Source of the DNA: Rufibacter ruber
GTDB lineage: Bacteria > Bacteroidota > Bacteroidia > Cytophagales > Hymenobacteraceae
Reading direction: 5' to 3'
Length of the DNA stretch: 64,000 nucleotides
Assembly: GCF_001647275.1 (NCBI RefSeq)
Contig: NZ_LRMM01000009.1
Span: forward strand, 1-64,000
The notes under the pieces were generated by a model. It worked only from the letters and a program-made list of their open reading frames with translations. It made no database searches and was not told where the DNA came from. This document shows positions 19,613-45,322 of this stretch, piece by piece; the stretch's first letter is position 1, and every line of letters starts with the position of its first letter. The translations under genes and the position numbers were made by a program.

Positions 19613-21286
19613 TTACTTAGAATTGGCCTGGCTCACTGAGGCAGCGGCTGGTTGGTTTTGGTGATAGGTGGAGTAGTTGACCTGCAGAGCGTCTAGGTGC
19701 TTCAGGTTCTGCCCCAGCCTCTGGGTGAAGTCAGCGTAATCTTTGGCTGCTACCGGTGTCCAGGCTACCTCGGCCAGGGCGCAGGCGCGCGGGAACGCCA
19801 TGTGCTCCACGTGCTCCTTGGTGGGGATGTATTCGGTCCAGAGGTTGGCTTGTACGCCCAGCACATGCTTGGCCTCGTCTGGGGTGAGCACCGCCGGCAC
19901 CGGATTGTACGAGTACACTTTCTCCAGCGAAGAGAAGCCGCCAATGGCCAGCGGTTCGGCCTTGCGGCCTTCTTTGGTCTGGTAGTGGTCAAAGTACAGG
20001 TGCGAGTTGGGGGTCATAATCACATCATGGCGTTCTTTGGCCGCGGCAATGCCGCCTTTCTCACCGCGCCAGCTCATAACGGTGGCGTTGGGAGCCAGAC
20101 CACCCTCCAGAATTTCGTCCCAACCAATAATGGCGCGGCCTTTGGAGTTCAGGAATTTCTCCATGCGCCTGATAAAGTAACTCTGCAGCCCGTGCTCGTC
20201 TTTGAGCCCGTGGTAGGAGATAAGCCCTTGCGCATACGCTGACTTTTTCCAGGCGTCTTTGGGCGCCTCATCGCCGCCAATGTGAATGTACTTGCTGGGG
20301 AAAATAGCCATCACCTCGGTCAGGACGTCTTCCAGGAACGTGAAGGTGTTCTCATTGGGGCAGTAAATGTCTTTGAAAACGCCCCACGTGGTGGCTACGG
20401 TGTAGGTGCTGTCTTTGCAGCCCAGCTCCGGGTAAGCGGCCAGCGCGGCGCGGGAGTGGCCGGGCATTTCAATCTCAGGAATGACGGTAATGAATCGGTC
20501 CTGGGCGTATTTTACCAGGTCTTTGAGTTCTTCCTGGGTGTAGTAGCCGCCGTGGCGCTTGCCGTCATATTTCTTCTCTTTGTCGCGGGAGTGGCCCACC
20601 AGGGTCTCGTTCCGCCAGGCGGCAATCTCCTGCAGTTTAGGGTATTTCTTGATTTCAATGCGCCAGCCCTGGTCTTCAGTAAGGTGGAAATGGAAGGTGT
20701 TGATTTTGTAAAAGGCCAGCAAGTCTATGTAGCGTTTCACGAAGTCAATGGGCTGGAAATGGCGGGCCACGTCCAGCATCATGCCCCGGTAGGCAAAGCG
20801 CGGCGCGTCTTCAATAGAAACAGCGGGCACCTCTATTTTCTTCAGACCAGCGTTCTTTTGCTCAATGGCGGCAGGCATGAGCTGGCGCAGCGTCTGGATG
20901 GCCAGAAAAGCGCCTTTGGCTGTCTTAGACGTCACCTTGATTTCTTTCTTGGTCACCTCCAGTTTGTAGCCTTCGTCATTGGTAATGCTATTGTCCAGGG
21001 CAAAGGTGATGGTGTTTTTCTTCGCGCCAGCGCTGTAGTTTAGCTTGTAACCGGCTGAATTTTCTACCAGGTTCACCAGAAAATCTGTGGCGGTTTTCAG
21101 GTCTGGCGCAGAAGAACCTAGTACAATCTGAGTCTTGGCATTCAGTTTAAAGTGGCCTTTGGCGGGGGTGAGTTTCACCGGCTTGGGAATGATGGCGTAC
21201 CGGCTGGCGTCCTGGGCGTACGCGGCCCCGGCCAGCACCAAGCAAGCCGTGAGCAGGAGGAAAAATTTAGACAAGGTTTGTTGCAT
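19613..21286 (-). CDS. Beta-N-acetylhexosaminidase, GH20
   Basis: Exported GH20 enzyme removing terminal beta-linked GlcNAc or GalNAc by substrate-assisted catalysis. 557 residues from ATG 21286: signal peptide to about residue 25 (AAYAQ), GH20b N-terminal domain about 30-155, then the catalytic TIM barrel with FHFHLTEDQGWRIEIKKYP, the catalytic pair in HIGGDEAP near residues 335-342 and the conserved IIGWDEILEGG and VMSWRG blocks. It is the most promoter-distal of fifteen co-directional genes running from glpD. In that setting it could trim GlcNAc from a glycerol-phosphate polymer, but murein or chitin fragments are also possible. Confidence 0.93.
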   Translation of the reverse strand: MQQTLSKFFLLLTACLVLAGAAYAQDASRYAIIPKPVKLTPAKGHFKLNAKTQIVLGSSAPDLKTATDFLVNLVENSAGYKLNYSAGAKKNTITFALDNSITNDEGYKLEVTKKEIKVTSKTAKGAFLAIQTLRQLMPAAIEQKNAGLKKIEVPAVSIEDAPRFAYRGMMLDVARHFQPIDFVKRYIDLLAFYKINTFHFHLTEDQGWRIEIKKYPKLQEIAAWRNETLVGHSRDKEKKYDGKRHGGYYTQEELKDLVKYAQDRFITVIPEIEMPGHSRAALAAYPELGCKDSTYTVATTWGVFKDIYCPNENTFTFLEDVLTEVMAIFPSKYIHIGGDEAPKDAWKKSAYAQGLISYHGLKDEHGLQSYFIRRMEKFLNSKGRAIIGWDEILEGGLAPNATVMSWRGEKGGIAAAKERHDVIMTPNSHLYFDHYQTKEGRKAEPLAIGGFSSLEKVYSYNPVPAVLTPDEAKHVLGVQANLWTEYIPTKEHVEHMAFPRACALAEVAWTPVAAKDYADFTQRLGQNLKHLDALQVNYSTYHQNQPAAASVSQANSK

Positions 21287-21420
21287 AGTTTGGTAGTTCT
21301 TTTTCAATATTCAATTTAAGTAACTGGCGGTGAAAGCACTGTGCCTAATTTACCAAATAATTGATGAGTTGGGCAAAAAGAGAAACAAGTGAACAGCGGA
21401 AGCTCCAGGGAAAAACAAAT

Positions 21421-21462
21421 TTCTGTTTTCGGGCTGTTTTGAGAAAAACACCGAAAACAGAA
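21421..21462. repeat. PAL palindrome copy, right arm deleted by two bases
   Basis: TTCTGTTTTCGGGCTGTTTT against AAAACACCGAAAACAGAA; the right inner arm has lost part of the GCCC. Between GH20 and the composite repeat at 21608. Confidence 0.8.
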
Positions 21463-21607
21463 AAACTTCTCATTGGAATTGCGAAATCCAAGTTGCGGTT
21501 TTCACCTCTCAAAAGTGAAACCCACCCCTGCCTCTCCCAGGAGGGGAATTGGCTGCTTGAGTAGAAAAAGCGAAGGCTCAATGTTCTCCATCTCTCCTAA
21601 AACGCTC

Positions 21608-21734
21608 TTCCGGATTTCTAATCCGGAAGCAGGTACTTCGGGGATTTGCAATCCCCGTGCCTGCGCTTTTGAACAGCACGCACCGCGGATTGCAAATCCG
21701 CAGGATACCAGATTCGGGATTGCAAATCCCGAAT
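21608..21734. repeat. Composite four-palindrome element, copy A
   Basis: Four different palindromes with a GATT-GCAA-ATC type core: TTCCGGATTTCTAATCCGGAA (21608), CGGGGATTTGCAATCCCCG (21639), GCGGATTGCAAATCCGC (21685) and TTCGGGATTGCAAATCCCGAA (21713). This order is the reverse of copies B (27863) and C (57311), so the element is inverted here. Flanking sequence (GGCTCAA ... CGCTCTTCC) is shared with copy B. A CCC-AGGAGGGG motif lies at 21536-21546. Confidence 0.85.
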
Positions 21735-21832
21735 AGCAGAACGGAGCTAATGGAATGATAGCACACCATTCTGCCTTGGTACGACAGGAAAAGTGTCCAC
21801 GGCTTCTCTAAAGCACAACGAGGGTGACGTTT

Positions 21833-22525
21833 CTACTTAAGGTAATTACCTTTTTTCAACACGTCGGCCCACTTCTGGTAGCCGGCCACGGTCAGGTGCA
21901 GGCCGTCATGGGTGTATTCTTTGACCAGACGCTTGTCACTGTCCAGGAAGTGCGGGTGTAAGTCAATCACCTCAATCTTCTCTTTCTTGGCCAGGTCTTT
22001 AATGCCTTGGTTCACGGCGGCAATATGCTCGTCTTTGTTGTAGTGGTTCTTGAACTTGTCAAAGGTATTGTTCACCGGCATGAGCGTCTGGAAGTAAATC
22101 CTGGTCTTGGGTGAACCGGCTTTGATGCGCGCCACCATTTTGCGGTGGTTGGCGGTAATTACGTGGTCCGGAATGTTGCGCGAGATGTCATTGATGCCAA
22201 TCAGGATGAACACTTTGGCGGGTTTGCCTTCAATGACTTCGTCCAGGCGCTCCAGCACGCCAAACGTGATGTCCCCCGAGATGCCGCGGTTTTTCACGTT
22301 AGACATACCCAGCAGCTCAGCCCAGTCAGTGTTGGCGGTAATGCTGTTGCCCAAAAACACAATGTCATTGGCCGCGTTTGGGTATGACTTGAATTGGGCC
22401 ACCTTCAGCTCATAGGCCGCTGGGCGGTAGGTGCTGTCCCACTTGGCAGCAGTGGTTTGGGCCTGGGCCTGAAAACCCAGCAAGAGCGCGCACAGCGCGG
22501 AAAGGAAAGTGCGTTTCAGTTTCAT
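21833..22525 (-). CDS. Secreted SGNH/GDSL esterase
   Basis: 230 residues with a signal peptide (MKLKRTFLSALCALLLGFQAQA). Block I is VFLGNSIT (Ser61), block II NRGISGDIT, block III IGINDISRN, block V YTHDGLHLTVAGY (Asp and His of the triad). This is the sialate/platelet-activating-factor acetylhydrolase-like branch, which removes acetyl or other short ester groups from sugars or lipids. In this cluster it could deacylate a decorated polymer (for example remove an ester substituent); that is inference. The ATG at 22525 starts the signal; an upstream in-frame start reads through a PAL repeat. Confidence 0.85.
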   Translation of the reverse strand: MKLKRTFLSALCALLLGFQAQAQTTAAKWDSTYRPAAYELKVAQFKSYPNAANDIVFLGNSITANTDWAELLGMSNVKNRGISGDITFGVLERLDEVIEGKPAKVFILIGINDISRNIPDHVITANHRKMVARIKAGSPKTRIYFQTLMPVNNTFDKFKNHYNKDEHIAAVNQGIKDLAKKEKIEVIDLHPHFLDSDKRLVKEYTHDGLHLTVAGYQKWADVLKKGNYLK

Positions 22526-22558: not shown

Positions 22559-22604
22559 TTTCTGTTTTCGGGCTGTTTTCAGAAAAACAGCCCGAAAACA
22601 GAAA
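22559..22604. repeat. PAL palindrome copy (perfect arms)
   Basis: Arms TTTCTGTTTTCGGGCTGTTTT / AAAACAGCCCGAAAACAGAAA are perfectly paired. Lies between the GDPD stop (22614) and the SGNH start (22525). Confidence 0.92.
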
Positions 22605-22613: not shown

Positions 22614-23519
22614 CTACTGGAAAAACAGGTTAGGGTAATCAGAAATGATGCCATCAACGCCCAACGCTTTCATGCGGGCAATGTCTTCCGGCGTATTCGC
22701 CGTCCAGGGAATCACTTTCATGCCCAGGGCATGGCATTGCTTCACCAGCTCGGCGGTTACCAGCTTGCGGTGCGGACTGTACACCACCGGCGTGAAGCCC
22801 AGGTCTTTGATGTTCTCTTCTACAGACTTTTGGTTATCAATGAGCAAAGACGTGCGCACCTGCGGGTGTTTCTGGTGCAGCACCTGCAACGTGCGTGGGT
22901 CAAATGACTGAATGATCACGTACGGGGTAATTTTCTTGTCTTCAATCACTTGCATGAGCGCCTTCACAAAGGCCTCTGGGGCCGGGTGTAGTTTGTTGTC
23001 TCCCGTGGCTTTTGATTTGGTCTCAATGTTGTAAAACACCTGCGGTTTACCCGTGGCTTTCAGGTAATTCTGTACTGAGTCAATCAGCTCCGCTAACCGC
23101 GGAATATAGGTTTTCACCAGCTGTTGCTCCGGAAAAAGGGAGTACGCTTTAGTCCCCAGTTCGAACGCCCGCACCTGGTCATAATTCATCTGGTAGACCA
23201 CGTACTTTTTGGCGTCTTCCTTGGGTATGTCTTCGCCTTTAGGCGTGCGGGCATACGCCGGATTGATGTGCGGGTCATGCGTTACCACCACCTGGCCGTC
23301 TTTGGTGATGTGGCAGTCCATCTCCAGGGTGGTCACGCCCAAGTCAAGGGCTTTGCGCATGGCCGGGATAGAGTTCTCCGGGAATAAGCCGCGGGCGCCG
23401 CGGTGGCCTTCGGTGCCGAAAGTCGGCAACGGCGGTAAGTTCTGGGTCACAGATTGAGAGCTTTTGCAACCGGCCAACAAGGTGGCACTGAGTAAGAGGG
23501 CAGAAAATGTTTTGTTCAT
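22614..23519 (-). CDS. glpQ: Glycerophosphodiester phosphodiesterase lipoprotein
   Basis: GDPD-family phosphodiesterase that splits glycerophosphodiesters into glycerol-3-phosphate and an alcohol; relatives also degrade teichoic acids. 301 residues, lipobox LLAGC (Cys18), so envelope-anchored. Catalytic residues are visible: GHRGARG (His39, Arg40), the metal-binding ENS Glu49, TLEMDCH (Glu66, Asp68) and VVTHDPH (His81); the C-terminal marks TANTPEDIARM and GVDGIISDYP also fit. It feeds directly into the upstream glpT/glpK/glpD functions. The symbol is by function, not proven orthology. Sixty bases separate it from the GH36 gene. Confidence 0.92.
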   Translation of the reverse strand: MNKTFSALLLSATLLAGCKSSQSVTQNLPPLPTFGTEGHRGARGLFPENSIPAMRKALDLGVTTLEMDCHITKDGQVVVTHDPHINPAYARTPKGEDIPKEDAKKYVVYQMNYDQVRAFELGTKAYSLFPEQQLVKTYIPRLAELIDSVQNYLKATGKPQVFYNIETKSKATGDNKLHPAPEAFVKALMQVIEDKKITPYVIIQSFDPRTLQVLHQKHPQVRTSLLIDNQKSVEENIKDLGFTPVVYSPHRKLVTAELVKQCHALGMKVIPWTANTPEDIARMKALGVDGIISDYPNLFFQ

Positions 23520-23579: not shown

Positions 23580-25745
23580 CTAAGGTTTTTCAGTGATTTC
23601 AAACACGGCGCTGGTAATGGCGGTGTTGGGCGACACGGCAATACCCACTTTCATGAGATAATCACCGGAGTAGGCTTTGCCATTGGCCGAAAACGTGGAT
23701 TTGGTGTCTGGCATGAGGTTGATTTCCTGCACCTGGTACTTCTTCTGCGGGTCCAGCCCTTGCAAACGTACCGGCGTGAAGCGGTCACGGTTACGGGTTT
23801 GCAGGTTGTAGGCGAACAGCACTGATTTGCTTTTTGCTTCGTTCACGTACATGAGCACCGCGCGCTTCTCTTCATACGGAGACACCAGCCGGTACTGGTC
23901 GCCAAACCAAATCACGTCACTCAGTCGCTTATAGTTAGCCACGGCTTGCTTGCAGTACTGCAGTTCCTTCTCATTGAACTCACTCACCTGAATGTCAAAG
24001 CCCAGCTTGCCCATCATGGCCACATCTGTGCGGTATTTCACCGGTTGCTTGCCCCAGCTGGTCACGTGCGCCGACATGGCCACCGCCGGGAAAAAGTTAG
24101 AGTAGCTCCATTGAATAAGCACGCGCTCCAGCCCGTCTGTATTGTCGCTGGGCCAGAACTCGGTGAAGTACGGCAGCGCGCCGTAGTCTACCCTGCCGCC
24201 GCCACCGGAGCAGAGCATGATGGGCAGGTGCGGGTATTTCTTGCGTATTCTGGCCAGCGTTTTGTACAAGCTATTCACGTAGTCAATAGGCAAATGCGAC
24301 TGCACCTTAAGGTTGGGTGAAAACGCGTTGGTGAACGTGCGGTTGCAGTCCCACTTAATGTAAGCGAGGCGCGGGTTCTTGGTGAGCAAATCATCTACCA
24401 GGTTAAACACGAAGTCCTGCACCTTGGGATTGGTAAGGTCCAGCACCAGTTGGTTGCGTTGGTAATGCTCGTCGCGGTTGGGCAGTTTCAAGACCCAGTC
24501 CGGGTGCTTTTCATAGAGTTCGCTTTTGGGGTTCACCATTTCGGGCTCCAGCCAGATGCCAAACTTCACGCCTTTCTGTTCGGCCTGTTCTACTAAGTAG
24601 CCAATGCCGCTGGGCAGCTTAGTTTTGTTTTCCTGCCAGTCGCCCAGCCCGGCGTTGGCCGCGTTGCGCGGATATTTGTTCCCGAACCAGCCATCGTCCA
24701 GCAAAAATAAATCCACGCCCAATTTGGCGGCGCCGTCAAACAGTTCTACCAGCTTCTTCTCATCAAAGTCAAAGTAGGTGGCTTCCCAGTTGTTGAGCAG
24801 CGTGAGGCGCGGTTTGTTGCCGTCCAGAATACCGTAGTTGCGGGCCCAACGGTGGAAACTGCGGCTGGCCTCGCCTTTGCCTTGCTGGCTGTAGGTGAAG
24901 ATAAACGCCGGGGTCACAAACGGTTGGTTAGGTGCCAAATGGTATTCAGACGCGTGCGGATTCATGCCCGCGATCACGCGTAACGAGTTCTTCTCGTCCA
25001 GCTCAAACGCGAACTGGAAATTACCAGACCATGCCAACGTACCCGCAATGACTTCGCCGTGGTTTTCGCCGGAAGGCTTGTCCAGGGAAAGCAAGAACGT
25101 GGGGCTCTGAAATTTGTGCGCGCGGGTGCCCAGTTTGCTGTCAATGACCTTGATGCCGCTGGTAAGCTGGTGCTCCTGCAACTGCATCTCGCCCGCCCAG
25201 TCGCCGTGGAACTGCGAGAGCCAGTAATTGGGTGCGTCAAAGTGCAGCATCGCCGAGGCGAAGTTGCCCAGCACCACCGGCTTCTTCTCCTTGTGTTTGA
25301 TTTCGGTCCAGGCCTTGATGATGTTTTCTTTCTGGAACGTATGGAAATGCAGAATCACCTCAACCGGGTACTTAGGGTCTTTCAGGTGAATGGCTGTTGC
25401 CGTCACGTTGGCCTCGGGTTGCTGCGTGGTGTGCCGGTCATACTTCAACTCCAAAGATGGGTTGCCGTCATTGTGCAACACCCTGATAGCCGGTTCAAAC
25501 AGGTTGTCGGTGCCCGAAGGAATGTACGCCTCATGCGCCGTGGAACTCAGCTGACCGTTGTCTTGCGCATTGGTGAGTTTGGGGCCCAGGTAACTTTGGT
25601 ACAGCTTCTGGTTCTTGCCCACAGTAAACGCCAGCGTGACTTTATCAGTCTGTACCAGGATTTGTTTGGTGGTTGGCTGCGCCTGCGCAAGTAGTCCAGA
25701 AGGCAACAGAAGCAGCAACGACCACAGGAGTAGTTTGTAGTTCAT
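23580..25745 (-). CDS. Alpha-galactosidase, GH36
   Basis: Exported GH36 enzyme removing terminal alpha-galactose. About 721 residues: signal peptide (LLLWSLLLLLPSGLLAQA), N-terminal beta-sandwich to about 320, catalytic TIM barrel with LFLLDDGWFG, FGIWLEPEMVNP, the nucleophile in YIKWDCNR (about Asp465), CSGGGGRVD and the acid/base in FWPSDNTDG (about 532), then a C-terminal beta domain. The second ATG (25745) begins the signal peptide; a start five codons earlier (25760) is also open. With neighbours it could remove alpha-Gal from teichoic-type polymers or from galactosylglycerols; plant alpha-galactosides are the plain alternative. Confidence 0.93.
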   Translation of the reverse strand: MNYKLLLWSLLLLLPSGLLAQAQPTTKQILVQTDKVTLAFTVGKNQKLYQSYLGPKLTNAQDNGQLSSTAHEAYIPSGTDNLFEPAIRVLHNDGNPSLELKYDRHTTQQPEANVTATAIHLKDPKYPVEVILHFHTFQKENIIKAWTEIKHKEKKPVVLGNFASAMLHFDAPNYWLSQFHGDWAGEMQLQEHQLTSGIKVIDSKLGTRAHKFQSPTFLLSLDKPSGENHGEVIAGTLAWSGNFQFAFELDEKNSLRVIAGMNPHASEYHLAPNQPFVTPAFIFTYSQQGKGEASRSFHRWARNYGILDGNKPRLTLLNNWEATYFDFDEKKLVELFDGAAKLGVDLFLLDDGWFGNKYPRNAANAGLGDWQENKTKLPSGIGYLVEQAEQKGVKFGIWLEPEMVNPKSELYEKHPDWVLKLPNRDEHYQRNQLVLDLTNPKVQDFVFNLVDDLLTKNPRLAYIKWDCNRTFTNAFSPNLKVQSHLPIDYVNSLYKTLARIRKKYPHLPIMLCSGGGGRVDYGALPYFTEFWPSDNTDGLERVLIQWSYSNFFPAVAMSAHVTSWGKQPVKYRTDVAMMGKLGFDIQVSEFNEKELQYCKQAVANYKRLSDVIWFGDQYRLVSPYEEKRAVLMYVNEAKSKSVLFAYNLQTRNRDRFTPVRLQGLDPQKKYQVQEINLMPDTKSTFSANGKAYSGDYLMKVGIAVSPNTAITSAVFEITEKP

Positions 25746-25848
25746 GTTTGGGTGAGACATTGAAAAATTCCGCCCGCGGGCGATGCATTATCAGGTAAAA
25801 GAGGCACGCTTTGCGGTGCATCAATTAGATAGGCAGATTTGCCCGCAC

Positions 25849-26134: not shown

Positions 26135-27553
26135 TTACGCCGTAGCGGCCGTGGCCTCGTACTGGTTCCCGAAGCGGTCAGTGGCCACCACCCGCACTTG
26201 TTTCACCTCTGGCCCCACGTGGCTCATGAAGAGGTGCTCGGTTCTGGCGGGCTCAGCGAAGGCGCGGCGGGCGGGGAGTTTGTCCCCTTTCATGGTGCGC
26301 ACGGCCTCGGGGTCATAGCCTTTGGTGTTTTGCAGCGCGCCCATGGGTTTGCTGTCTGCGTACCACTCCACTTTCCAGGCGGGGTCCCAGTTCCAGACGT
26401 TGGCAATAAAGCGGTTCTGGCCGGTGAGTTTCTCCATGTCCAGGCTGATCTGGTGCGATTTGTCTTTGCCAGTTGACTTATAGAACCACTGCAGCTGGTT
26501 GCCGTTCACCTCATACACGCCGTAGCCGTTGGGCGTACCGTCTGTGCAGATAGCCCCTGACCACCAGGCGCCGCACACCGTGCCGTGCACGTGCTCATGC
26601 ACGCCTTCGCGCAGCATGTGGTAGTTGGTGTGCGTGTGGCCGGTCATGATGTGCACCTGATAGCCCTGCAGCAGCGCAAACAGCTCTTCGCGGTTTTTCA
26701 CGGCGTTAGAAATGGGAATGTGCGCGTTGATGATCACCAGATGGTCTTTGGGCACATGGCTCAAATCCTGCTTGATCCAGGCCAGTTGCTGTTCATTGAG
26801 GTGGCCGTCATACTCGCGCTCCTTGCCCAGGTACCGCACGTCATCCAGCACAATGTAATGCGCCTTGCCGCGGTTGAACGAGTAATACGTAGGGCCAAAG
26901 ATTTTCTGGAACGTTACGTCAGAGGTCTCGTCGCCGCCCTGGCGGTAGTCCATGTCATGGTTGCCCAGCGCCTGGAAAAACGGAATGCCAATGGCCCCCA
27001 CGGCTTTGCTGTAATCCGGGAAAAGTTTGTGGTTGTCCCAGACCAGATCGCCCACGCCAATGCCGTGCACCAGCGCGTCTTTGCCCAGGCTCTGTACCAG
27101 TTTCTGGGCATCGGGCACCGAGTCCTGCATCATGAGTTTCACGTCTGTGGCGTCTTTCACCTGCGGGTCTGCCCAGATAATGAACGAGTGTTTGCTGTCA
27201 TCCCGGCCCAACGGCTGCAGCTCAAAATCATACTTTTTGCCTTTGCCGCCAGAAATGGGCAGGTAATGCCGGGCCAGGCCTTTCTCCTGCGGGAACTCGT
27301 ACCCCGCCGGAATGGAGACAAACACAAAGCGGGCCTGCGGGTTGGCCGGCAGCTCAAACTGCCCGCGTCTGTCGGTCTTTGCCACGGTAAAACCGTCTGA
27401 TACCACTACATCGGCCAATTTCTTGCCGCGGGTTTTCACTGTGCCGGTAAGGGTTTGCTTTGCTTTTCTGGTTCTGGCAAAGACATCTGGGCCAGCCAAC
27501 ACCAGGCCTCCGGAGAACAGGGCGAGGGTCTGGAGAAAGGTTCTTCTTTTCAT
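26135..27553 (-). CDS. Calcineurin-like phosphoesterase with N- and C-terminal MetallophosN/C domains
   Basis: Exported metallophosphoesterase of 472 residues. The N-terminus MKRRTFLQTLALFSGG is a twin-arginine-like signal. Domains: transthyretin-like MetallophosN about 35-115 (LTGTVKTRGKKLADVVVSDG), calcineurin core about 125-330 with IWADPQ, VGDLVWD, LGNHDMDY and MTGHTHTNYH (metal ligands Asp, His, Asn, His), and a C-terminal domain to the end. Such enzymes cleave phosphomonoesters or phosphodiesters; this domain set is common in Bacteroidota loci for phosphorylated glycans. It may release phosphate or split a phosphodiester of the imported substrate. Repeats on both sides separate it from its neighbours. 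Confidence 0.88.
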   Translation of the reverse strand: MKRRTFLQTLALFSGGLVLAGPDVFARTRKAKQTLTGTVKTRGKKLADVVVSDGFTVAKTDRRGQFELPANPQARFVFVSIPAGYEFPQEKGLARHYLPISGGKGKKYDFELQPLGRDDSKHSFIIWADPQVKDATDVKLMMQDSVPDAQKLVQSLGKDALVHGIGVGDLVWDNHKLFPDYSKAVGAIGIPFFQALGNHDMDYRQGGDETSDVTFQKIFGPTYYSFNRGKAHYIVLDDVRYLGKEREYDGHLNEQQLAWIKQDLSHVPKDHLVIINAHIPISNAVKNREELFALLQGYQVHIMTGHTHTNYHMLREGVHEHVHGTVCGAWWSGAICTDGTPNGYGVYEVNGNQLQWFYKSTGKDKSHQISLDMEKLTGQNRFIANVWNWDPAWKVEWYADSKPMGALQNTKGYDPEAVRTMKGDKLPARRAFAEPARTEHLFMSHVGPEVKQVRVVATDRFGNQYEATAATA

Positions 27554-27596: not shown

Positions 27597-27640
27597 TTCT
27601 GTTTCTGGCCTGTTTTTCAAAAAACAGGCCAGAAACAGAA
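27597..27640. repeat. PAL palindrome copy (perfect arms)
   Basis: TTCTGTTTCTGGCCTGTTTT / AAAACAGGCCAGAAACAGAA perfectly paired, including a T-to-C change in the first CTGTTTT that is compensated in the right arm. Lies 44 bases upstream of the metallophosphoesterase start. Confidence 0.92.
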
Positions 27641-27862: not shown

Positions 27863-27989
27863 ATTCGGGATTTGCAATCCCGAATTTTCCTACCTGCGGA
27901 TTTGCAATCCGCGGCGCGTGCTGATGAAACGTGCAGAGACGGGGATTGCAAATCCCCGAGGTAGGTGCTTCCGGATTACAAATCCGGAA
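27863..27989. repeat. Composite four-palindrome element, copy B
   Basis: ATTCGGGATTTGCAATCCCG (27863), GCGGATTTGCAATCCGC (27896), GGGGATTGCAAATCCCC (27941), TTCCGGATTACAAATCCGGA (27969). Same order as copy C and inverse of copy A. A CCCCT-GAGGAGGGG motif precedes it at 27778-27795, as near copies A and C. Confidence 0.88.
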
Positions 27990-30911: not shown

Positions 30912-30957
30912 GGGCTTTGGTTGAAAGAATGACAAAATTTTTAGTGATTTCATTGCC

Positions 30958-32201: not shown

Positions 32202-32470
32202 GGGGAACAGGTAAATATTCTAACGATCTGTTTGCATTCTGCGCTTCTGGGTATACTGGGTTTAACAGACGGCAGCGTGTGGAATTTTAATTTGAAAGCT
32301 AGTCCTATAGTTTGATGATTTTATTTCTTGGAGGTGAGGTTTGCTACAGGTACACCGGTGTGCGAAGCTCTTGGGGTTAATGTTAGGTTAGAGAAGAACA
32401 GTTTAATGACAAAAATTAGTCATTTTTCCACGAGTGAAAGTAGTATTAAAGAAAATGGACATTCTTTAAA

Positions 32471-32532
32471 TACTACCATTCCTGTTTTAGGGCTGTTTTG
32501 AGAAAAACAGCCCTAAAACAGGAATGGTAGTA
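32471..32532. repeat. PAL palindrome, extended 29-bp perfect stem
   Basis: A PAL copy (arm CTGTTTTAGGGCTGTTTT) extended outward by TACTACCATTC, giving a 29-bp perfect stem with a GAGA loop: the longest perfect palindrome in the window. 26 bases after the DUF5689 stop codon. Remaining gap 32202-32470 holds nothing else recognised. Confidence 0.95.
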
Positions 32533-32558
32533 TTGGTTAAAGCTAGAGGGGCAAGGGA

Positions 32559-33815: not shown

Positions 33816-33840
33816 TCTGAAGTTTTTCATGACAGTTTAA

Positions 33841-38300: not shown

Positions 38301-38593
38301 ATGGTGGCACCTCTTGCTACACTCATTTGAAAGGTACCGTCTGCATTAGACATACCAATGGCTTGGTCATTCACAAAAATGGTAACACCTGGCATAGCGG
38401 AGCCATCCAGAGGGTCAACAATTTTTCCCTTTACGGGTACTTTGTCAGTTTGGGGGGACTGTTGAAAATAACCAGCCGCCGCGGCTGGAGTTGGCAACAA
38501 GTTGGTACCCATCATGAGAAGGCAGGTGCCCAATAGAATTCCCTTGCCCAGGCTTTTTCTGGAAAAAGGTGGTGGCTGTAAAAATGTTGTCAT
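35315..38593 (-). CDS. SusC/RagA-family TonB-dependent receptor
   Basis: 1092 residues. Signal peptide with a long n-region (cleavage near PAAAA, about residue 40), carboxypeptidase-regulatory domain about 52-130 (GKIVDPLDGSAMPGVTIFVND, FTFIGYQQ), TonB-box-like NEVVVTALG about 139-147, plug domain to about 290 with VLKGPGASALYGARGANGAIIITTKKG, then the barrel ending in MGVSLNVSF. It begins only 33 bases after the glpT stop codon, linking an oligomer importer to glycerol-3-phosphate uptake in one transcript. Less AT-rich than the first susC gene. Confidence 0.95.
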   Translation of the reverse strand: MTTFLQPPPFSRKSLGKGILLGTCLLMMGTNLLPTPAAAAGYFQQSPQTDKVPVKGKIVDPLDGSAMPGVTIFVNDQAIGMSNADGTFQMSVARGATISFTFIGYQQQKLVITKPEDNLIIKLATDAKQLNEVVVTALGIEREEKALGYSVTTVQGNEIAETMPNNWTDALSGKVAGVNLVKSNGGPAGSNKIILRGETSLDGNNEALIVVDGVVTSSSGGRRTGNGSSAYLSDDSPVDFGSSLADINPEDIESVSVLKGPGASALYGARGANGAIIITTKKGSSIQKGMGITFSSNTTFATINRWPDYQNEYGQGATAQDLHYSYGATEDGPSTFSTSSAWGPKFNGQMYYQYDPATYRQIPTGRTLWRAYPDNRKDFFETAKTFTNSVSVSGGTTNTSARLSFTNSQNSWIVPNTGYDRNTVALQVSHKVNDKLKLDSKINYTNRWSDNLPTTGYNNQTIMYFIRGLTPNMDINWFKNYWVPGKEQIEQWKPFSNLLDNPYLQAYEMLNKSNRHNFVGNVSATYSFTKELSLMVRSSIDFMSEARSQQRPKNTNKYIDGMYREQEINTHEQNSDFLLRYENNKLSDFEFTVSFGGSTMNNKYSMNEYRAEKLLYPGIYTLANSKVNLIPIKRREEFGVNSLYGLFTVGYKDFLFLDITGRNDWTSTLVTPVTPTSVTEEKRSVPSFFYPSFNLSAVLSEAFVLPSQISLLKLRGSWAEVGSGGVEPYLTSYTYNPKVNFASGLGNPTTLPNPDLRPLRTQSLEFGLDLRLFKSRLNLDVAVYKNNTFDQIFNRPIDPASGYSSIVTNSGEVENKGIEIQVNGTPIKNLKGFTWNVFGTYAANRNTVVSLSDSTNAQVLTTVYGSRGTVEARVGGRLGDMYGFGYERSPDGQIIYENGYPVLGDSLIYLGNYAPKWRASLGNEFRYKRFKLNILFDAQFGGVGYSLTHAVLMEEGKLKKTLPGRYNGIIGDGVIANSDGTYRPNDVVATVIRDYYYAHFNRDNLEANTFSTDFIKLRELRLDYNLPSSLTKKLKMQNASIGIYGRDLLVFSNWPAFDPEFGTLGDGDISSGSEIAQFPSTRTMGVSLNVSF

Positions 38594-38626: not shown

Positions 38627-40003
38627 CTATTGAAGATTAAGGTGAAGCTTTTCTCTTTTCCAGGTGAAGGCGGTGAATAGGATGGAAAGCACGCAGGCAG
38701 CTACCAGCATGGTAAACCCTCCATCCCAGCCCCAGTGGTCAACAATGAAGCCCATGGCAATATTGGCGAACAGCGCACCTCCCAGGTAGCCGAATAAACC
38801 CGTGAGACCGGCTGCAGTGCCGGCTGCTTTTTTGGGTACCAGGTCCAGGGCCTGAACCCCTATCAGCATCACGGGGCCGTAGATCAGGAAACCAATGGAG
38901 ATCAAGGCCACATTGTCTATCCAGAGATTGCCTGCCGGGTTCTTCCAATACACCAGTACTGCAATTAAAACCAGAACCATGTAGATGATGGTGGCAGGGG
39001 CCCGGCGGCCTTTGAAAACTTTGTCACTGATCCAGCCGCAAAGCAGGGTGCCGGGAATTCCTGCGTATTCATAGGCGAAGTAGGCCCAGCCGGTCTCTTT
39101 TACTGAGAACCCTTTGGCTTCTTCCAGATATGTGGGAGCCCAGTCCAGAATGCCGTAGCGCACTAAATACACAAACGCATTCGCGAAGGCGATGTACCAA
39201 AGCACCCGGTTGTTGAAAACATACTCAAAGAAGATCTGCCTGGCCGTTAGTTCCTGCTCTTGGGCAGCAGAGTAATTGGCAGGATAATCGTTCTTATAAG
39301 CTTCAATGGTGGGCAAGCCACAAGACTGGGGCGTGTCCCGCACCAGCATATAAGCAATGGCGGCAAATACCAGGGCTACCAAACCAGGGAAATAGAACTT
39401 GCTTTCCCAGGTGCCAAAGATGGCAACTGCCGCAATAGCAATAGGGCCTACCAAACCGCCGCCTACGTTGTGGGCCACGTTCCAGATAGACATTTTGGTG
39501 CCACGTTCCTTCGTGGAAAACCAATGGACCATGACCCGGCCGCACGGAGGCCAGCCCATGCCCTGGAACCAGCCGTTCAGGAACAGTAGAATGAACATGA
39601 TGGTGATGGAACTGGTGGCGATAGGCGCTACCCCCATGAAGACCATGGTCAGCGCCGAAAGCAGAAGACCCACGCTCAGGAAGGTGCGGGCATTGCTTCG
39701 GTCAGAGACATTTCCCATCAGAAACTTACTCAGGCCGTAGGCAATAGACACGCCTGACAGGGCAAAGCCTAAGTCAGATTTGGAATACCCCTGTTCAATC
39801 AGGTCTGGCATAACCAGTGAAAAATTCTTGCGCACTAAATAATAGCCCGCATAGCCTAGAAAGATACCCAGGAAGACCTGAAGCCGCAATTGCTTGTAAA
39901 CGGGGTCAATGCGTTGCAGGGGTAACGGTTCTGCATGCGGAGCAGGGGCAAATAGTCCCTTTCGGGGTGGAGTGGCGGTTGCCTCAGAATGGTATTTGTC
40001 CAA
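38627..40003 (-). CDS. glpT: Glycerol-3-phosphate transporter (OPA-type MFS)
   Basis: Inner-membrane antiporter bringing in glycerol-3-phosphate against phosphate. 458 residues, twelve hydrophobic segments. GlpT-like marks: [81 protein letters not shown] (the organophosphate-antiporter signature), and [19 protein letters not shown]. The start is a TTG (40003); no ATG is in frame before the first membrane segment. The 168-base gap upstream to glpF could hold its own promoter. The following susC begins 33 bases downstream. Confidence 0.93.
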
Positions 40004-40171: not shown

Positions 40172-40900
40172 CTACTGTAACAACAGGTACAACAGGGCAG
40201 CTGCCGTTGCTCCTGCTATTGGGCCAAGAATTGGAACCCAGGCATAGCGCCAGTCACTGTGGCATTTGTTCTTGATAGGCAGAAGCGCATGCACAATGCG
40301 GGGGCCTAAATCACGTGCCGGATTAATAGCATAGCCAGTAGTCCCACCTAGTGAAAGTCCAATTGCCCAGACCAGAAAGGTGACAGGCAGTGCCCCCAGA
40401 GAGCCCATGCCAATAGGTGTTTTCTGATCACCCATCTCAGGGGTGGTGATGTACAGGATCACGTAAATCAAAACAAAGGTGCCTACTGCCTCGCTGAACA
40501 GGTTAGAAACCGGATGCCTGATGGCCGGACCAGTACTGAATACCGCTAACTGAGCCAATGGGTCTTCAGTGGAGTCAAAATGGGGTTTGTATAAGAGCCA
40601 CACCAGAAAAGCACCCAGAATAGCCCCTAGCATCTGAGCGGCAATGTATGGCGCCACCAGACTCCATGAAAATTTACCAACTATGGCCAGGCCAATACTA
40701 ACCGCCGGATTCAGGTGCGCGCCGCTGTAGGGACCCGCTATGACCACCCCGGCAAACACAGAAAGCGCCCAGCCGGTGGTAATGACCATCCAGCCGCTGT
40801 TATTGCCTTTGGTGCCTTTCAGGACCACATTGGCTACAACGCCCCCTCCCAGGAGTATCAGGAACATAGTGCCAATCACTTCTGCCGTGAATGCTGACAT
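40172..40900 (-). CDS. glpF: Glycerol uptake facilitator (aquaglyceroporin)
   Basis: Inner-membrane channel for glycerol diffusion. 242 residues, six membrane helices and two half-helices with NPA motifs: SGAHLNPAVSIG and GYAINPARDLGPR. The Asp after the second NPAR is the mark of glycerol facilitators rather than water-only aquaporins. The ATG at 40900 gives the conserved MSAFTAEVIGTMFLILLGGG start; an upstream in-frame start would overlap glpK. Five bases separate it from the glpK stop, so the two are cotranscribed. Confidence 0.95.
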   Translation of the reverse strand: MSAFTAEVIGTMFLILLGGGVVANVVLKGTKGNNSGWMVITTGWALSVFAGVVIAGPYSGAHLNPAVSIGLAIVGKFSWSLVAPYIAAQMLGAILGAFLVWLLYKPHFDSTEDPLAQLAVFSTGPAIRHPVSNLFSEAVGTFVLIYVILYITTPEMGDQKTPIGMGSLGALPVTFLVWAIGLSLGGTTGYAINPARDLGPRIVHALLPIKNKCHSDWRYAWVPILGPIAGATAAALLYLLLQ

Positions 40901-40905
40901 GGTTT

Positions 40906-42426
40906 TTAGGTTAAGGGGGAAACTGTTTCTACCGGAGTATCCTGCGCCCAGGCCTTGGCTGCCCGTACTGCCCGGTGCCAACCCTGTATCAAGTGCTTTG
41001 TTTCTGTGCCGGGATTGGCGTCAAAGCTATCTTTCACCTGCCACTGCTCCTGAATATCTTCCAGGCTGTCCCAGAAACCAACCGCCAGCCCTGCCAGGTA
41101 GGCGGCGCCAATTGCGGTTACCTCGGTGATGGCTGGCTTAACCACCCGGGCATTCAGAATATCTGCCTGTAATTGCATGAGCAGGCTGTTTTCCGTTGCC
41201 CCGCCGTCTACCCGTAATTCTTTGATGGCGATCTCGGCATCAGCCTCCATCGCTTTTAAGACTTCCATGGTCTGGTAGCAGATGCTCTCCAGGGCGGCAT
41301 GTGCAATGTGCGCGGAGGTGGTGCCTCTGGTCATACCCACAATGGTACCTCTGGCGTGTTGGTCCCAATGCGGGGCACCCAGACCCGCAAAGGCAGGTAC
41401 CAGGTAGACACCGTCGCTGCCAGAGACTTTTTTGGCAAGTTCTTCCACTTCAGCAGAGCTGGAGATGACGCCTAGCCCATCACGTAGCCACTGGACCACT
41501 GCACCGGCAATAAAAATGCTGCCCTCCAGGGCGTAGTGCACCTGGTCCTTGATTTTCCAGGCTACGGTAGTGACCAGCTTGTGCTTTGACAGAATGGGTT
41601 TCTCGCCAATGTTCATCAACATAAAGCAGCCGGTGCCATAGGTGTTTTTCACCATGCCGGGTTTGGTACACATCTGGCCAAAAAGGGCGGCCTGCTGGTC
41701 GCCGGCTATACCCGCTATGGGAATGCGGGTGGCGAACAGGGAAGAGGAGGTTTCCCCCACCACTTCACTAGATGATGCCACCGTAGGCAGCATACTGGCC
41801 GGGATGTCAAAGAGGGCGAGTAAATCCTGGTCCCAGGTGAGGGTGTGTATATTAAAGAGAAGCGTGCGGGATGCGTTGGTCACGTCTGTGACGTGTACCT
41901 TGCCGCCCGTCAGGTTCCAGATAAGCCAGGAGTCTACCGTCCCGAAGGCCAGGTGACCGGCTTCGGCGTCTTCTCTGGCGTTGGGCACCGTTTCCAGGAT
42001 CCACTTTACTTTGGTGGCTGAAAAATAGGCATCAATCACCAGGCCGGTTTTTTCCCGGATCATCTCCTCCAGGCCCTGCTCGTTCAGGCTGTCACAGTAA
42101 GCCGCGGTGCGCCTGTCTTGCCACACAATGGCGTTGCAGACGGCTGCCCCGGTTCTGCGGTCCCAGACCACGGTGGTTTCCCGCTGGTTAGTGATACCAA
42201 TGGCTGCTATGTCTTCCGCCTTCAGCCCCGCTTTAGAGATAGCTTCTGCGGCCACCCCCAGCTGGGTTGACCAAATCTCATTGGCATCATGCTCCACCCA
42301 CCCCGGGTTGGGGTAGATCTGGGTGAATTCTTTCTGAGCCAAAGAGACAATACTTCCCTGCTGGTTAAAGACAATGGCGCGGGAGCTGGTAGTGCCTTGG
42401 TCAAAAGAGAGTATATAGTTTGCCAT
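40906..42426 (-). CDS. glpK: Glycerol kinase
   Basis: Phosphorylates glycerol to glycerol-3-phosphate with ATP. 506 residues, full length. FGGY-family blocks are present: [16 protein letters not shown] at the start, [26 protein letters not shown], the GTGCFMLMN phosphate loop, [19 protein letters not shown] and [21 protein letters not shown]. It sits between glpD (5 bases upstream) and glpF (5 bases downstream). Confidence 0.97.
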
Positions 42427-42431
42427 AGTAG

Positions 42432-44081
42432 TTAGTTGGTTTTATAGCTCATAGCCGGGGCGGTCATTGCCTCAGCCGGGGTATAAGGCTCCAGTAGATA
42501 GTTAGACGCCAGGGAGGTGAAATCTTGTACCTGTTGCCGTTCCCATGCCGCATCCTGGCCAAGCTCCTCCGCCATGAGGCGGGCGGTTTTGGGTGCCATG
42601 TCTATGGCGGCGCGGGCGTCCAGAAACAGGATGCGCATTCTGCGGGCCAGTACATCTTCAATGGTTCTGGCCATTTCATTCTTGGTTGCCCATACCACCT
42701 CTGCGGCCGTGTTGGGGAACCGCTCGTGCAAAGGGGCCGCCAGTTCAGGGCGTTCTGCCATCATGTCCTGAATCAGGCTCTTATCTGATCCATAGATAGA
42801 GAGGTGACCTGAGGCGGCCTTACCTGTGGCATGGCCATGTATTTTCAAGGAAGAAGTCACGCATGCCTTTTGCGGGAGGGTGCCTACTTCCATGGCTTTG
42901 TCTACAGTGTCCTGGGCCATTCTGCGGTAGGTAGTCCATTTCCCGCCGGTAATGGTAATCAGGCCAGAAGGGGCAACCAGTAGTTTGTGGCTTCTGGAGA
43001 TCTCTTTGGTGCTGTTGGTGTTCTTGGTAGGCGCCGCCAAAGGCCTGAGGCCGGCAAAGACACTCAGTACATCTGCTCTGGTAGGCTTGCGCACCAGGTA
43101 CTTTCCGGCGGTTTCCAGAATAAAGTCTATTTCCTGGTCAAGGGCCTGGGGCTCCAGGCTGTTTTTGTCTAAGGGCGTATCTGTTGTGCCCACCAGCAGG
43201 TGATTGTGCCACGGAACCGCGAACAGTACCCGCCCGTCTGGGGTTTTGGGGATCATCAGGGCGTTTTCCCCTGGCAGGAATGTACTGTTAAGCACCACGT
43301 GCACACCTTGGCTGGGTCTTACCAGGGGCTGTTGGGTGGGGGCGTTCATCTGCAATACTTCGTTCACAAATACACCCGTGGCGTTTACCACCGTTTTTGC
43401 TTTCAGCAGGTATTCCTGGCCAGACTCCAGGTCTTTTGCTTTTACCCCTGCCACTTTGCCGGAGCTGTCTTTGAGGAGCTGTACCACCTGCACGTAATTT
43501 AGCAAAACCCCGCCTTGCTCGGCGCAGGTTTGGGCAAGGTTGAGGGCGAGGCGGGCGTCATCAAACTGACCGTCAAAATACTGCACACCGCCTTTCAGGC
43601 CGTTGGGCTGAATGTTGGAGAGCAGGTTGGTTACTTTTTTGCCCGAGAGGAGCCGGGTCTTGTTGAACCGGTAGCGGCCGGCCATGAGGTCATACACGGT
43701 TAGGCCCACGCCATATAGCATCTCATTCCACCAGCTGTAGTTGGGGATGACAAACGACTGAATGTTGACCAGGTGCGGGGCGTTCTGCAGGAGCAGGCCG
43801 CGCTCATACAGCGCCTCGTACACCAGCTTCACGTCACCCTGTGCCAGATACCGCACCCCGCCGTGTACCAGTTTGGTGCTTCTGCTGGAAGTTCCTTTTG
43901 CAAAGTCAGATTGCTCTAACAGTAAGGTTTTGAAACCACGCGAGGCCGCGTCTAAGGCTACTCCCAAACCAGTGGCTCCCCCTCCAATAACAATCATATC
44001 CCACTCTGTAGCCGTATTTTGCGCTTTTTTTAAAAACTGTTCTCGCTTGAAAAACTGGCCAGCTGATTCTTTCTCTTTCAC
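42432..44081 (-). CDS. glpD: FAD-dependent glycerol-3-phosphate dehydrogenase
   Basis: Oxidises glycerol-3-phosphate to dihydroxyacetone phosphate at the membrane and passes electrons to quinone. 549 residues: FAD-binding [21 protein letters not shown] (about 30-50), [59 protein letters not shown], and the DAO C-terminal domain. The start is a GTG (44081); the next ATG (WDMIVIGGG) would cut the conserved N-terminal helix. First gene of the minus-strand block, with a promoter and a TACTTTCGTTTTA motif just upstream shared with the glpR leader. Confidence 0.96.
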
Positions 44082-44113: not shown

Positions 44114-44126
44114 TACTTTCGTTTTA
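44114..44126 (+). promoter_or_regulatory. Candidate GlpR operator (glpD side)
   Basis: Exact 13-mer TACTTTCGTTTTA, identical to 44523-44535. It contains the TTTCG core seen in GlpR/DeoR-type operators and touches the predicted glpD -7 box (44125-44132, minus strand), a position suited to repression. Confidence 0.5.
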
Positions 44127-44156
44127 AAATTATGTCACTCAAATAACAAAAGCAAA
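44125..44156 (-). promoter_or_regulatory. Candidate glpD promoter
   Basis: On the minus strand: TTTG (44156-44153), 20-base spacer, TAATTTTA (44132-44125; one mismatch to TAnnTTTG), about 44 bases before the GTG start of glpD. Confidence 0.5.
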
Positions 44157-44495
44157 TGAAATGAATTAAAATATTTAACTGAAGCGATGTAGTTTTTGTA
44201 AAAATGCCAATAGCACCTTGTGAGGGAAAGGAAAACTGTAAGAATACAGGAGGGGGCCAGGGGGAAAGATAGGTTTAGTTTACCTCAGGAGAAGCCGGGC
44301 TTGTAGGGTGGAACAAGGCAGTGGTAGAGTAAAAGTGAATGAAAAGCTAGCAATAGTTAGCTTTCTAACTGCGTGTATTTTATCTTGAGGTGAAGCTTTT
44401 AAAGGTAGAGAGAAGGGAGGCCTTCTAAGATGAGGGAGCTTCCAGGCATGCAGCTGGCGCTGCTGCTGTTGGTTCAGATGGTGAATTCCTCTACA

Positions 44496-44530
44496 TTTGT
44501 TAAGGGCAATGCCAGGGGTAGATACTTTCG
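44496..44530 (+). promoter_or_regulatory. Candidate glpR promoter
   Basis: TTTG (44496-44499), 23-base spacer, TACTTTCG (44523-44530; one mismatch to TAnnTTTG). The -7 box lies inside the second 13-mer, so GlpR could repress itself. Confidence 0.45.
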
Positions 44531-44535
44531 TTTTA
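44523..44535 (+). promoter_or_regulatory. Candidate GlpR operator (glpR side)
   Basis: Second exact TACTTTCGTTTTA, 16 bases before the glpR ATG, overlapping the predicted -7 box. Confidence 0.5.
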
Positions 44536-44551
44536 TTTTGTTAGCGCTACT

Positions 44552-45322
44552 ATGATTAGTATAACTGAAAGACATCAACATATAATTAATAAACTACAGC
44601 AGGAGGGGCAGGTGAATGTATTAGACCTTTGTGACCAGCTGAGCGTCTCATCTGTCACCATTAGAAAAGACCTCAAGCTGCTGGAAGACAAAGGGCTGCT
44701 GTTCAGGACCCACGGGGGAGCCACCCAGAACAACCCCTATACCATTGACAGGCCGGTAAATGAAAAGGAGCATCTGCAGATCAGTGAAAAGACCCGGATA
44801 GGCATTGCCGCGGCCAAACTGATTGAACCCAATGACTCCATCCTGATTGCCTCTGGCACCACGGTCATGGCGCTGGCCAAAAGCATTCAGCCGCATGCCC
44901 TGAAAAACCTGACTGTTATCACCTCAGCCCTGAACGTGGCGCTGGAACTGCTGCGGCACCCCGAGGTGGAGGTGATGCAGCTGGGCGGGCTGTTAAGGCG
45001 CAGCTCCTCTTCTGTCACCGGGCCCTACTCAGAGAGCATTCTGGCAGATTTCTCCTGCAGCAAGCTGTTTCTGGGGGTAGACGGGATTGACCTGGAGTTT
45101 GGCCTGACCACCACCAATGTCATGGAGGCGCACCTGAACCGGCAGATGATCAACATTTCCCAGAAGGCCATTGTGCTGGCAGACTCCTCTAAATTTGGGA
45201 AGCGCGGTTTTGGGCGCATCTGCGGCTTTGAAGACATTGACCAGATCATTACAGACAAAGGCATTTCTGAGCACACCCTCAACTCCCTGCAGGGAATGGG
45301 GGTGAAGGTGACAATCGTATAG
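44552..45322 (+). CDS. glpR: DeoR/GlpR-family transcriptional repressor
   Basis: 256 residues. N-terminal DeoR helix-turn-helix (about 6-57: ITERHQHIINKLQQEG, VSSVTIRKDLKLLEDKGLLFRTHGGA) and a sugar-phosphate-sensing DeoRC domain (ILIASGTTVMALAKSI, GGLLRRSSSSVTGP, FLGVDGIDLEFGLTT, VLADSSKFGKRGF). Divergent from glpD, it most likely represses the glpDKF block and perhaps glpT-susCD, with release by glycerol-3-phosphate. A member of the wider DeoR family responding to another sugar phosphate cannot be excluded, but position strongly favours glycerol-3-phosphate. Confidence 0.88.
   Translation: MISITERHQHIINKLQQEGQVNVLDLCDQLSVSSVTIRKDLKLLEDKGLLFRTHGGATQNNPYTIDRPVNEKEHLQISEKTRIGIAAAKLIEPNDSILIASGTTVMALAKSIQPHALKNLTVITSALNVALELLRHPEVEVMQLGGLLRRSSSSVTGPYSESILADFSCSKLFLGVDGIDLEFGLTTTNVMEAHLNRQMINISQKAIVLADSSKFGKRGFGRICGFEDIDQIITDKGISEHTLNSLQGMGVKVTIV

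Follow-up and report, generated by a model that had tools for sequence, protein, structure and literature searches.

The DNA analyzed here (the window) is a stretch of 64,000 nucleotides from Rufibacter ruber (RefSeq assembly GCF_001647275.1, contig NZ_LRMM01000009.1, positions 1 to 64,000 of the forward strand). It carries a gene cluster in which a SusC/SusD outer-membrane pair (SusCD) and exported phosphodiesterases stand beside genes for the uptake and oxidation of glycerol-3-phosphate (G3P). Open reading frames (ORFs) were checked, and family names were assigned by Pfam and NCBIfam profile searches of the window proteins, NCBIfam scores being judged against curated cut-offs. The cluster comprises 15 back-to-back minus-strand ORFs (19613–44081) and a divergent regulator on the plus strand (44552–45322). 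A first-pass annotation of the window had named these sixteen genes, and the ORFs and profile matches confirmed the names, that of GlpR by context. The features were as follows.

44552..45322, plus strand: GlpR-like DeoR-family regulator (Pfam DeoR)
44117..44533, no strand: part of the glpR-glpD gap bounded by two AAACGAAA copies, candidate operators
42432..44081, minus strand: glpD, predicted FAD-dependent glycerol-3-phosphate dehydrogenase (Pfam DAO and DAO_C; NCBIfam best 295 bits, under the equivalog cut-off of 360)
40906..42426, minus strand: glpK, glycerol kinase (Pfam FGGY kinase; TIGR01311, 741 bits, above the cut-off of 590)
40172..40981, minus strand: glpF-type MIP channel (Pfam MIP; above the TIGR00861 subfamily cut-off, no equivalog cut-off reached)
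38627..40003, minus strand: glpT, glycerol-3-phosphate transporter (Pfam MFS; TIGR00712 equivalog, 740.4 bits, above 632.55)
35315..38593, minus strand: SusC outer-membrane TonB-dependent transporter (Pfam TonB plug and CarboxypepD_reg; TIGR04056, 580 bits, above 368)
33841..35301, minus strand: SusD-like_2 surface lipoprotein (Pfam; alignment of relatives)
32559..33830, minus strand: DUF5689 lipoprotein, probable third surface component (Pfam; acidic residues after the lipobox Cys)
31026..32201, minus strand: PLD-like lipoprotein (Pfam PLDc_2; NucT as one very weak PDB match)
29631..30953, minus strand: exported PHP+DUF5001 phosphoesterase, accessory (Pfam PHP 22.7 bits, under the cut-off of 26.4; PDB 3e38, 1.5e-58)
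28196..29590, minus strand: Gfo/Idh/MocA oxidoreductase with a twin-arginine-like start, accessory (Pfam)
26135..27553, minus strand: calcineurin-type phosphoesterase, here MetalloP (Pfam MetallophosN and MetallophosC)
23580..25760, minus strand: GH36 alpha-galactosidase, accessory (Pfam; PDB AgaB, 8.9e-117)
22614..23519, minus strand: GDPD lipoprotein, predicted G3P releaser (Pfam; GlpQ active-site residues present)
21833..22525, minus strand (ORF extends to 22657): SGNH esterase (Pfam GDSL/SGNH; PDB 6njc and 7pzg)
19613..21307, minus strand: GH20 beta-N-acetylhexosaminidase, accessory (Pfam)

GlpT narrowly missed the cut-off of a second model, NF008433 (738.6 vs 748 bits). Two starts were corrected by eye, that of SGNH probably to near 22525 and that of glpF probably to near 40900. 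The susC and susD genes are an adjacent pair.

Conservation was assessed in 200 evenly drawn genomes of the family, the window's own included, with GlpT called at E ≤ 1e-120. GlpT was present in 23 of them, and in all 23 a SusC gene adjoins it. Other components of these loci were counted by tblastn with the window proteins on stretches of 14–40 kb, whose reach was uneven. Seven loci belong to the window's genus (g1) and 16 to a Pontibacter-type genus (g3), so that the counts describe related genomes and not 23 independent events. The former genus is probably Rufibacter, because a SusD paralogue from one member (G063) groups with four named Rufibacter when SusD sequences are arranged in a tree. 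SusC, SusD, GDPD, MetalloP and SGNH were found in 23/23 loci, the PLD-like gene in 22 (missing in G061), a glpR-like gene in 22 and glpD in 21, the stretches of the other two being cut. DUF5689 was found in 15, always next after SusD. At least two distant SusD lineages fill the same slot while the enzymes persist; in eight g3 loci this slot is taken by a distant SusCD that lacks DUF5689. Since GlpT adjoins SusC in every GlpT-bearing genome of the 200, chance assembly of the locus is excluded by gene-order conservation, and SusCD, the phosphodiesterases (GDPD, MetalloP, PLD-like) and GlpT/GlpD are taken to be one conserved unit. Gene order in the family was the test that the first-pass annotation had set for itself, and SusCD and the phosphodiesterases did stay with the glp genes.

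The remaining enzymes were much rarer: Gfo/Idh occurred in 6 of the 23 loci, GH36 in 4, GH89 in 4, GH20 in 3, GH116 with DUF2961 (presumably GH172) in 2, and PHP in the window's locus only. Because PHP, GH36 and GH20 were found in just 1, 4 and 3 of the 23 loci, and in none of the 16 g3 stretches, the cluster is read as a glycerophosphodiester core with genus-specific decoration enzymes. The earlier claim of a glycerol-phosphate utilization locus thus stood for the conserved unit; PHP, GH36 and GH20, which it had included, are not core. Relatives of the window PHP-DUF5001 protein (50–53%) were seen in five g3 genomes within SusC loci (L213–L217; L213 is from G108 and L215 from G102). Four of these five loci have genes for extracytoplasmic function (ECF) sigma factors or FecR in the stretch, and the relative in L213 adjoins a NAGPA phosphodiester glycosidase and a xylose-isomerase-like TIM barrel.

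The product of the locus is probably intact G3P, because six g3 loci (G018, G058, G084, G098, G118, G120) keep glpT and glpD and lack glpK and glpF in the stretches searched. Overall glpK and glpF were each found in 17/23 loci, and a Pedobacter locus likewise keeps glpT and glpD without the other two. Free glycerol would therefore not be the necessary output.

The predicted release of G3P is assigned to the GDPD, a glycerophosphodiester phosphodiesterase. Published statements are cited here by PMC number, as far as the available parts of those texts go. By alignment, all eight active-site residues compared from the Bacillus subtilis GlpQ list in PMC7086022 are present: His43, Arg44, Glu70, Asp72, His85, Glu152, Gln188 and Phe190 of GlpQ correspond to His39, Arg40, Glu66, Asp68, His81, Glu166, Gln204 and Phe206 of the GDPD. 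The protein scored far under the NCBIfam equivalogs (PRK09454, 73 vs 264 bits; PRK11143, 37 vs 254 bits). MetalloP relatives share the invariant motifs D-x-Q, GD, GNHD, H and GHTH; its structure was predicted with a local distance difference test score (pLDDT) of 78.7, and sequence search gave no PDB match. The best PDB matches of SGNH were 6njc ('Sialate O-acetylesterase | Lysophospholipase L1', 7.5e-51) and 7pzg ('Lysophospholipase L1', 8.4e-51). As its nearest PDB relatives bear both names, ester removal from a polymer and lipid deacylation both fit this enzyme.

Acidic residues stand just past the lipobox Cys in DUF5689 (C-LEDD), SusD (C-NQDFDE) and the PLD-like protein (C-SSSED), as well as in most relatives with a simple lipobox pattern, and resemble the surface lipoprotein export signal described in PMC5080379. 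The acidic pair is absent from the GDPD (C-KSSQS). These residues weakly suggest that SusD, DUF5689 and the PLD-like protein may lie at the cell surface and the GDPD in the periplasm. By eye, twin-arginine-like motifs stand at the N termini of MetalloP and Gfo/Idh.

Glycosidases were found in 6/7 g1 loci and 0/16 g3 loci. Within g1, GH36 and GH89 each occurred in 4/7 loci, GH20 in 3/7 and GH116 with DUF2961 in 2/7, and G012 had none. The GH36 gene lies between MetalloP and GDPD, and that of GH89, an alpha-N-acetylglucosaminidase, between PLD and MetalloP, each co-directional. The closest PDB sequences to GH36 were the alpha-galactosidases AgaB and AgaA. At E ≤ 1e-100, Gfo/Idh gave 17 matches in 16 of the 200 family genomes, six of them in glp clusters. 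A link of this oxidoreductase to alpha-linked N-acetylglucosamine (alpha-GlcNAc) is plausible, since 5 of the 11 copies elsewhere lie within 1.5 kb of GH89-type genes (contig 89 of the own genome, G037, G057, G074, G132). Contig 89 (L246) holds a second locus of alpha-GlcNAc type with two GH89-like genes, a Gfo/Idh 83% like that of the window and, by eye, a ROK-like regulator. Assignment of Gfo/Idh to GH109, the NAD-dependent alpha-N-acetylgalactosaminidase family, was dropped: only general Gfo/Idh/MocA Pfam models matched, and no GH109-named chain was among the 60 of 72 PDB matches listed. The idea that Gfo/Idh and GH89 exclude each other from one slot was rejected, since G048 carries both.

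The name 'GlpR' for the window regulator rests on gene context. Its best curated model was AgaR (262.7 bits, cut-off 260), and its score with the DeoR/GlpR model PRK10906 (114.9 vs 331 bits) is too low for an E. coli-type GlpR. Of the 18 loci examined, 17 have the motif AAACGAA[A/T], in either strand, within the 300 bp ahead of glpD (500 shuffles: mean 0.86, maximum 4), the loci being related and the 17 hits therefore not 17 independent sites. It was also found upstream of glpR in 8 of 24 loci, upstream of each other cluster gene in 0–3 loci, and upstream of 6 of 73 control SusC genes (loci L094–L165, nearly all not glp-linked, the glp-linked L103 among them). Two AAACGAAA copies stand near both ends of the window's glpR-glpD gap. 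This candidate operator pattern suggests one control point at the head of the operon. A GlpR site ahead of every unit was not found, the enrichment being at glpD, plus glpR in those 8 of 24 loci.

Long intergenic gaps, each with a palindrome, precede PLD (357 bp), MetalloP (642 bp), GH36 (374 bp) and GH20 (525 bp), and because of them the window locus is likely to form several transcription units. Given these probable separate transcripts, GH36 and GH20 need not respond to the GlpR-like protein. A near-perfect dispersed palindrome of the TTCTGTTTT-GGGCTGTTTT type occupies most cluster gaps (19522–19565, 21420–21463, 22559–22604, 27597–27640, 32469–32534 and further sites); one search pattern found 11 of its left arms across the window. 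Inverted repeats of the GGATTTGCAATCC type, resembling repetitive extragenic palindromes, are clustered at 21642–21730 and 27868–27985; one pattern gave seven such repeats in the window, all within two gaps of this locus.

Wider samples, overlapping and with the own genome included, had GlpT at this level of similarity in 7/395 genomes of the phylum, 11/395 of the class and 14/390 of the order. Outside the family, 18 distinct GlpT loci, several on short stretches, were compared with the window proteins. SusCD and GDPD accompanied GlpT in four loci, all from one family, f4 (G320, G556, G864, G913), and weaker GDPD matches lay near GlpT in eight more (36–38% in L197–L200; 24–30% in L268, L269, L271 and L272). 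A 932-residue ORF in L197 adjoins FecR/ECF genes. Among named genomes, glp-linked SusCD clusters were found in Pedobacter metabolipauper (L089) and Sphingobacterium sp. xlx-96 (L103), taken from the best 80 of at least 526 SusD relatives. In these two and the four f4 loci, GlpT follows GDPD, rather than preceding SusC, with SusC and SusD in the cluster. Four of the six also have MetalloP and SGNH (none seen in Sphingobacterium and G556), and PLD was found in G913 only. By this comparison the SusCD-GlpT coupling is kept through rearrangement. In G913 (L267), a 2047-residue ORF (12409–18552) lies downstream of the SusCD-PLD-MetalloP-GDPD-GlpT-SGNH locus.

From the same best 80, the 75 SusD-relative loci whose sequence runs on for 6 kb or more downstream were examined. 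MetalloP and/or GDPD lay within 7 kb in 63 of them, and neither was found in 12. ECF-sigma or FecR genes were present in 39 and glp genes in 7, never both together; five of the 7 are Pontibacter genomes already in the family count, and other loci also repeat genomes. Hymenobacter genomes (g6) with a close SusD had MetalloP and/or GDPD in 16 of 16 loci taken, and both in at least 13, while GlpT at the above threshold was not found in g6 within the 200-genome sample. In a quick SusD tree of 112 rows, which carries a long-branch warning and omits the SusD of G055, the glp label needs 9 changes, 6 of them forced by starred branches, vs 23.6 in shuffles. By this tree the glp-linked SusDs are clustered, yet not one clade. 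SusCD-phosphodiesterase modules that lack glp genes are common, and the glp version seems to be a rewired form of such scavenging loci.

A paralogous locus on contig 20 of the own genome (L084, 7.6 kb) has a DeoR regulator 54% like GlpR, followed by SusC, SusD and DUF5689, with SusD split into two overlapping frames. The same locus on contig 8 of G048 (L078) has a whole SusD and then an MFS transporter weakly like GlpT; further downstream, a FAD protein, an endonuclease/phosphatase-like and a nucleotide-pyrophosphatase-like protein were recognized by eye.

Taken together, the conserved genes are considered likely to encode a SusCD system that is controlled by a GlpR-like protein and draws carbon (and phosphorus) from glycerophosphodiesters, with a core leading from glycerophosphodiester to G3P. 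SusD, DUF5689 and the PLD-like lipoprotein would bind the substrate and make the first cut at the surface, and SusC would import the fragments. Periplasmic steps would follow: the SGNH esterase, joined by glycosidases in the window's genus, would strip off groups that stop exo-cleavage, the MetallophosN/C enzyme would cut internally or take off phosphate, and the GDPD would liberate sn-glycerol-3-phosphate. GlpT would then import G3P intact and GlpD oxidize it to dihydroxyacetone phosphate, GlpF and GlpK being an optional salvage of free glycerol. Floridoside or another galactosylglycerol, raised as an alternative in the first-pass annotation, was rejected as the main substrate, the conserved enzymes being phosphodiesterases and six relatives lacking glpK and glpF in the locus.

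Several observations weigh against this glycerophosphodiester-to-G3P reading. GlpT is not always tied to SusCD, since 14/18 GlpT loci outside the family showed none in the comparison with window proteins, several on short stretches, and 6/18 had no GDPD match, four of those on contigs below 12 kb. In Hymenobacter, close relatives of the SusD have no glp genes beside them, so that what SusD binds need not be tied to use as carbon. The own genome encodes one more DAO-family protein, which scored slightly above the GlpD of the locus. The lipoprotein sorting is a weak inference, the PDB relatives of SGNH are named both O-acetylesterase and lysophospholipase, and the long gaps with palindromes make a single transcript improbable. 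No glycosidase was found in the stretches of the 16 g3 loci or of G012, which puts decoration removal outside the core; for those loci, polymer without decoration or small glycerophosphodiesters must be enough. All support comes from sequence, and the substrate, function and expression are predictions.

For the window's own version, a decorated poly- or glycosyl-glycerol-phosphate such as Gram-positive teichoic acid is the favored substrate, at somewhat less than even confidence. A decorated glycerol-phosphate polymer would need such enzymes as GH36, GH89 and the esterase beside phosphodiesterases, and GH36, the GH89 of relatives and published decorations are what favor teichoic acid, a substrate that the first-pass annotation had proposed. 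Lipoteichoic acid (LTA) carries GlcNAc in B. subtilis and galactose in Listeria (PMC5836110), and Streptomyces lipoteichoic or wall teichoic acid bears alpha-GlcNAc (PMC3196553). GlpQ is blocked at glycosylated or alanylated glycerol-phosphate units, and B. subtilis also has a second, endo-acting phosphodiesterase (PMC7086022). The GlpT/GlpD pathway seems to fit wall teichoic acid better than LTA, because GlpQ frees G3P from the former and leaves intact LTA uncut (PMC7086022). The fuller proposal of a dedicated Gram-negative teichoic-acid utilization locus is put forward tentatively: SusCD would import pieces of wall or lipoteichoic acid, alpha-galactose, alpha-GlcNAc and ester groups would be stripped, the cell would live on the G3P backbone, and species would exchange decoration enzymes in keeping with the polymers that their neighbors make. 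Should the substrate be teichoic acid, the locus would offer a concrete and testable route by which this phosphorus-rich Gram-positive polymer could be recycled.

Glycan uptake is the role for which SusCD systems are chiefly known, with phosphorus scavenging a more recent addition; a glp-coupled SusCD, if true, would extend this outer-membrane machinery to the supply of phosphodiester compounds for carbon. A literature search, mostly of non-subscription texts and with some listings partial, found no glp-coupled SusCD locus described among the matches listed; papers on phosphate utilization systems (PUS) were nearest. Like Flavobacterium PUSI (PusCD1), the window locus has SusCD beside exported phosphodiesterases, two of them in PUSI, and does not require the classical enzymes of a polysaccharide utilization locus (PUL) (PMC8115612). 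PUSI has its own features, namely low-phosphate induction, an ECF sigma gene and phosphodiesterases listed as phosphoinositide phospholipase C type and cAMP phosphodiesterase type (PMC8115612). Unlike PUSI, the window locus has a GDPD, GlpT/K/F/D and a GlpR-like regulator, and no ECF/FecR. It shares with PULs the order of SusC, SusD and a third lipoprotein followed by exported degradative enzymes, glycosidases included; its conserved enzymes, however, are phosphodiesterases and an esterase, its regulator is of DeoR type and its glycosidases are optional. Because the glycosidases are not conserved, the locus is judged not to be a typical PUL.

The E. coli glp regulon consists of GlpQ-GlpT, GlpK-GlpF, GlpD and GlpR. 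The window locus resembles it in a GDPD feeding GlpT, with GlpK, GlpF, GlpD and a DeoR-family regulator, and differs in holding these genes in one cluster with SusCD, an esterase and glycosidases. The B. subtilis teichoicases GlpQ and PhoD offer another parallel, an exo-acting GDPD with the same active-site residues and a second phosphodiesterase of another family. Here the cell is Gram-negative, import would cross the outer membrane, MetallophosN/C replaces PhoD, and the polymer would be foreign rather than the cell's own.

A substantial possibility, short of even, is that the substrates are phospholipid head-group diesters of dead cells (glycerophosphocholine, -ethanolamine, -glycerol or -inositol), with SGNH and the PLD-like protein acting on lysolipids and the GDPD freeing G3P. 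GDPD families act on such diesters. The g3 core without glycosidase agrees with this explanation, as do the lysophospholipase L1 name among the SGNH relatives, borne besides sialate O-acetylesterase, and a weak NCBIfam match to lysophospholipase L1; lipid head groups, along with nucleic acids, are also what the PUS paper proposes for PUSI (PMC8115612). It gives no role, however, to GH36 and GH89 inside the g1 cluster or to GH20, GH116 and DUF2961 beside it, and SusCD usually serves larger ligands.

That GH20, and perhaps GH36, are chance neighbors forming a separate glycan unit is possible but rather unlikely. Their low counts (3/23 and 4/23), the palindrome-bearing gaps of 525 and 374 bp before them and the lack of an operator motif upstream in the loci examined would suit such a unit, but GH36 and GH89 are each embedded, co-directionally, between core genes in 4/7 g1 genomes.

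It is unlikely that the locus is a PUS-like system whose purpose is phosphorus, with glp genes merely disposing of carbon. Related SusCD loci, mostly with MetalloP and/or GDPD, do stand beside ECF sigma or FecR genes in 39/75 cases from the best 80, and PUSI has an ECF sigma factor (PMC8115612). ECF/FecR genes were, however, found in none of the seven glp-linked SusD-relative loci from that set and in none of the 23 family stretches, 22 of the 23 loci have a GlpR-like gene, and the candidate operator lies mainly at glpD. F. johnsoniae, which has PUS loci, can draw phosphorus from phosphoglycerol but could not use it as its only source of carbon (PMC8812569), a step that glp genes would add.

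Gram-negative poly(glycosylglycerol phosphate) capsules or glycosylphosphatidylinositol-like glycophospholipids, in place of Gram-positive teichoic acid, are a distinctly improbable target; these capsules are similar to wall teichoic acids (PMC8262930), either polymer could suit the chemistry of GH36 and GH89, and the present evidence does not separate them. Service of the outer-membrane part to nucleic acids, with DUF5689 and the PLD-like protein in DNA capture, is very improbable: natural transformation in Riemerella requires a DUF5689 protein (PMC8459023), so that the domain itself may have some role with DNA, and the sole, very weak PDB match of the PLD-like protein is the nuclease NucT, but the constant partners are GDPD and GlpT, and DUF5689 is missing from 8/23 loci.

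Next to glpR, an OxyR-like LysR gene (best NCBIfam model OxyR, under cut-off) and a divergent Dps-like gene occupy 45378–47291, as they do in G012; they are ordinary oxidative-stress genes outside the system. The LysR-type gene has one copy of the TTCTGTTTT-GGGCTGTTTT-type palindrome upstream of its likely start.

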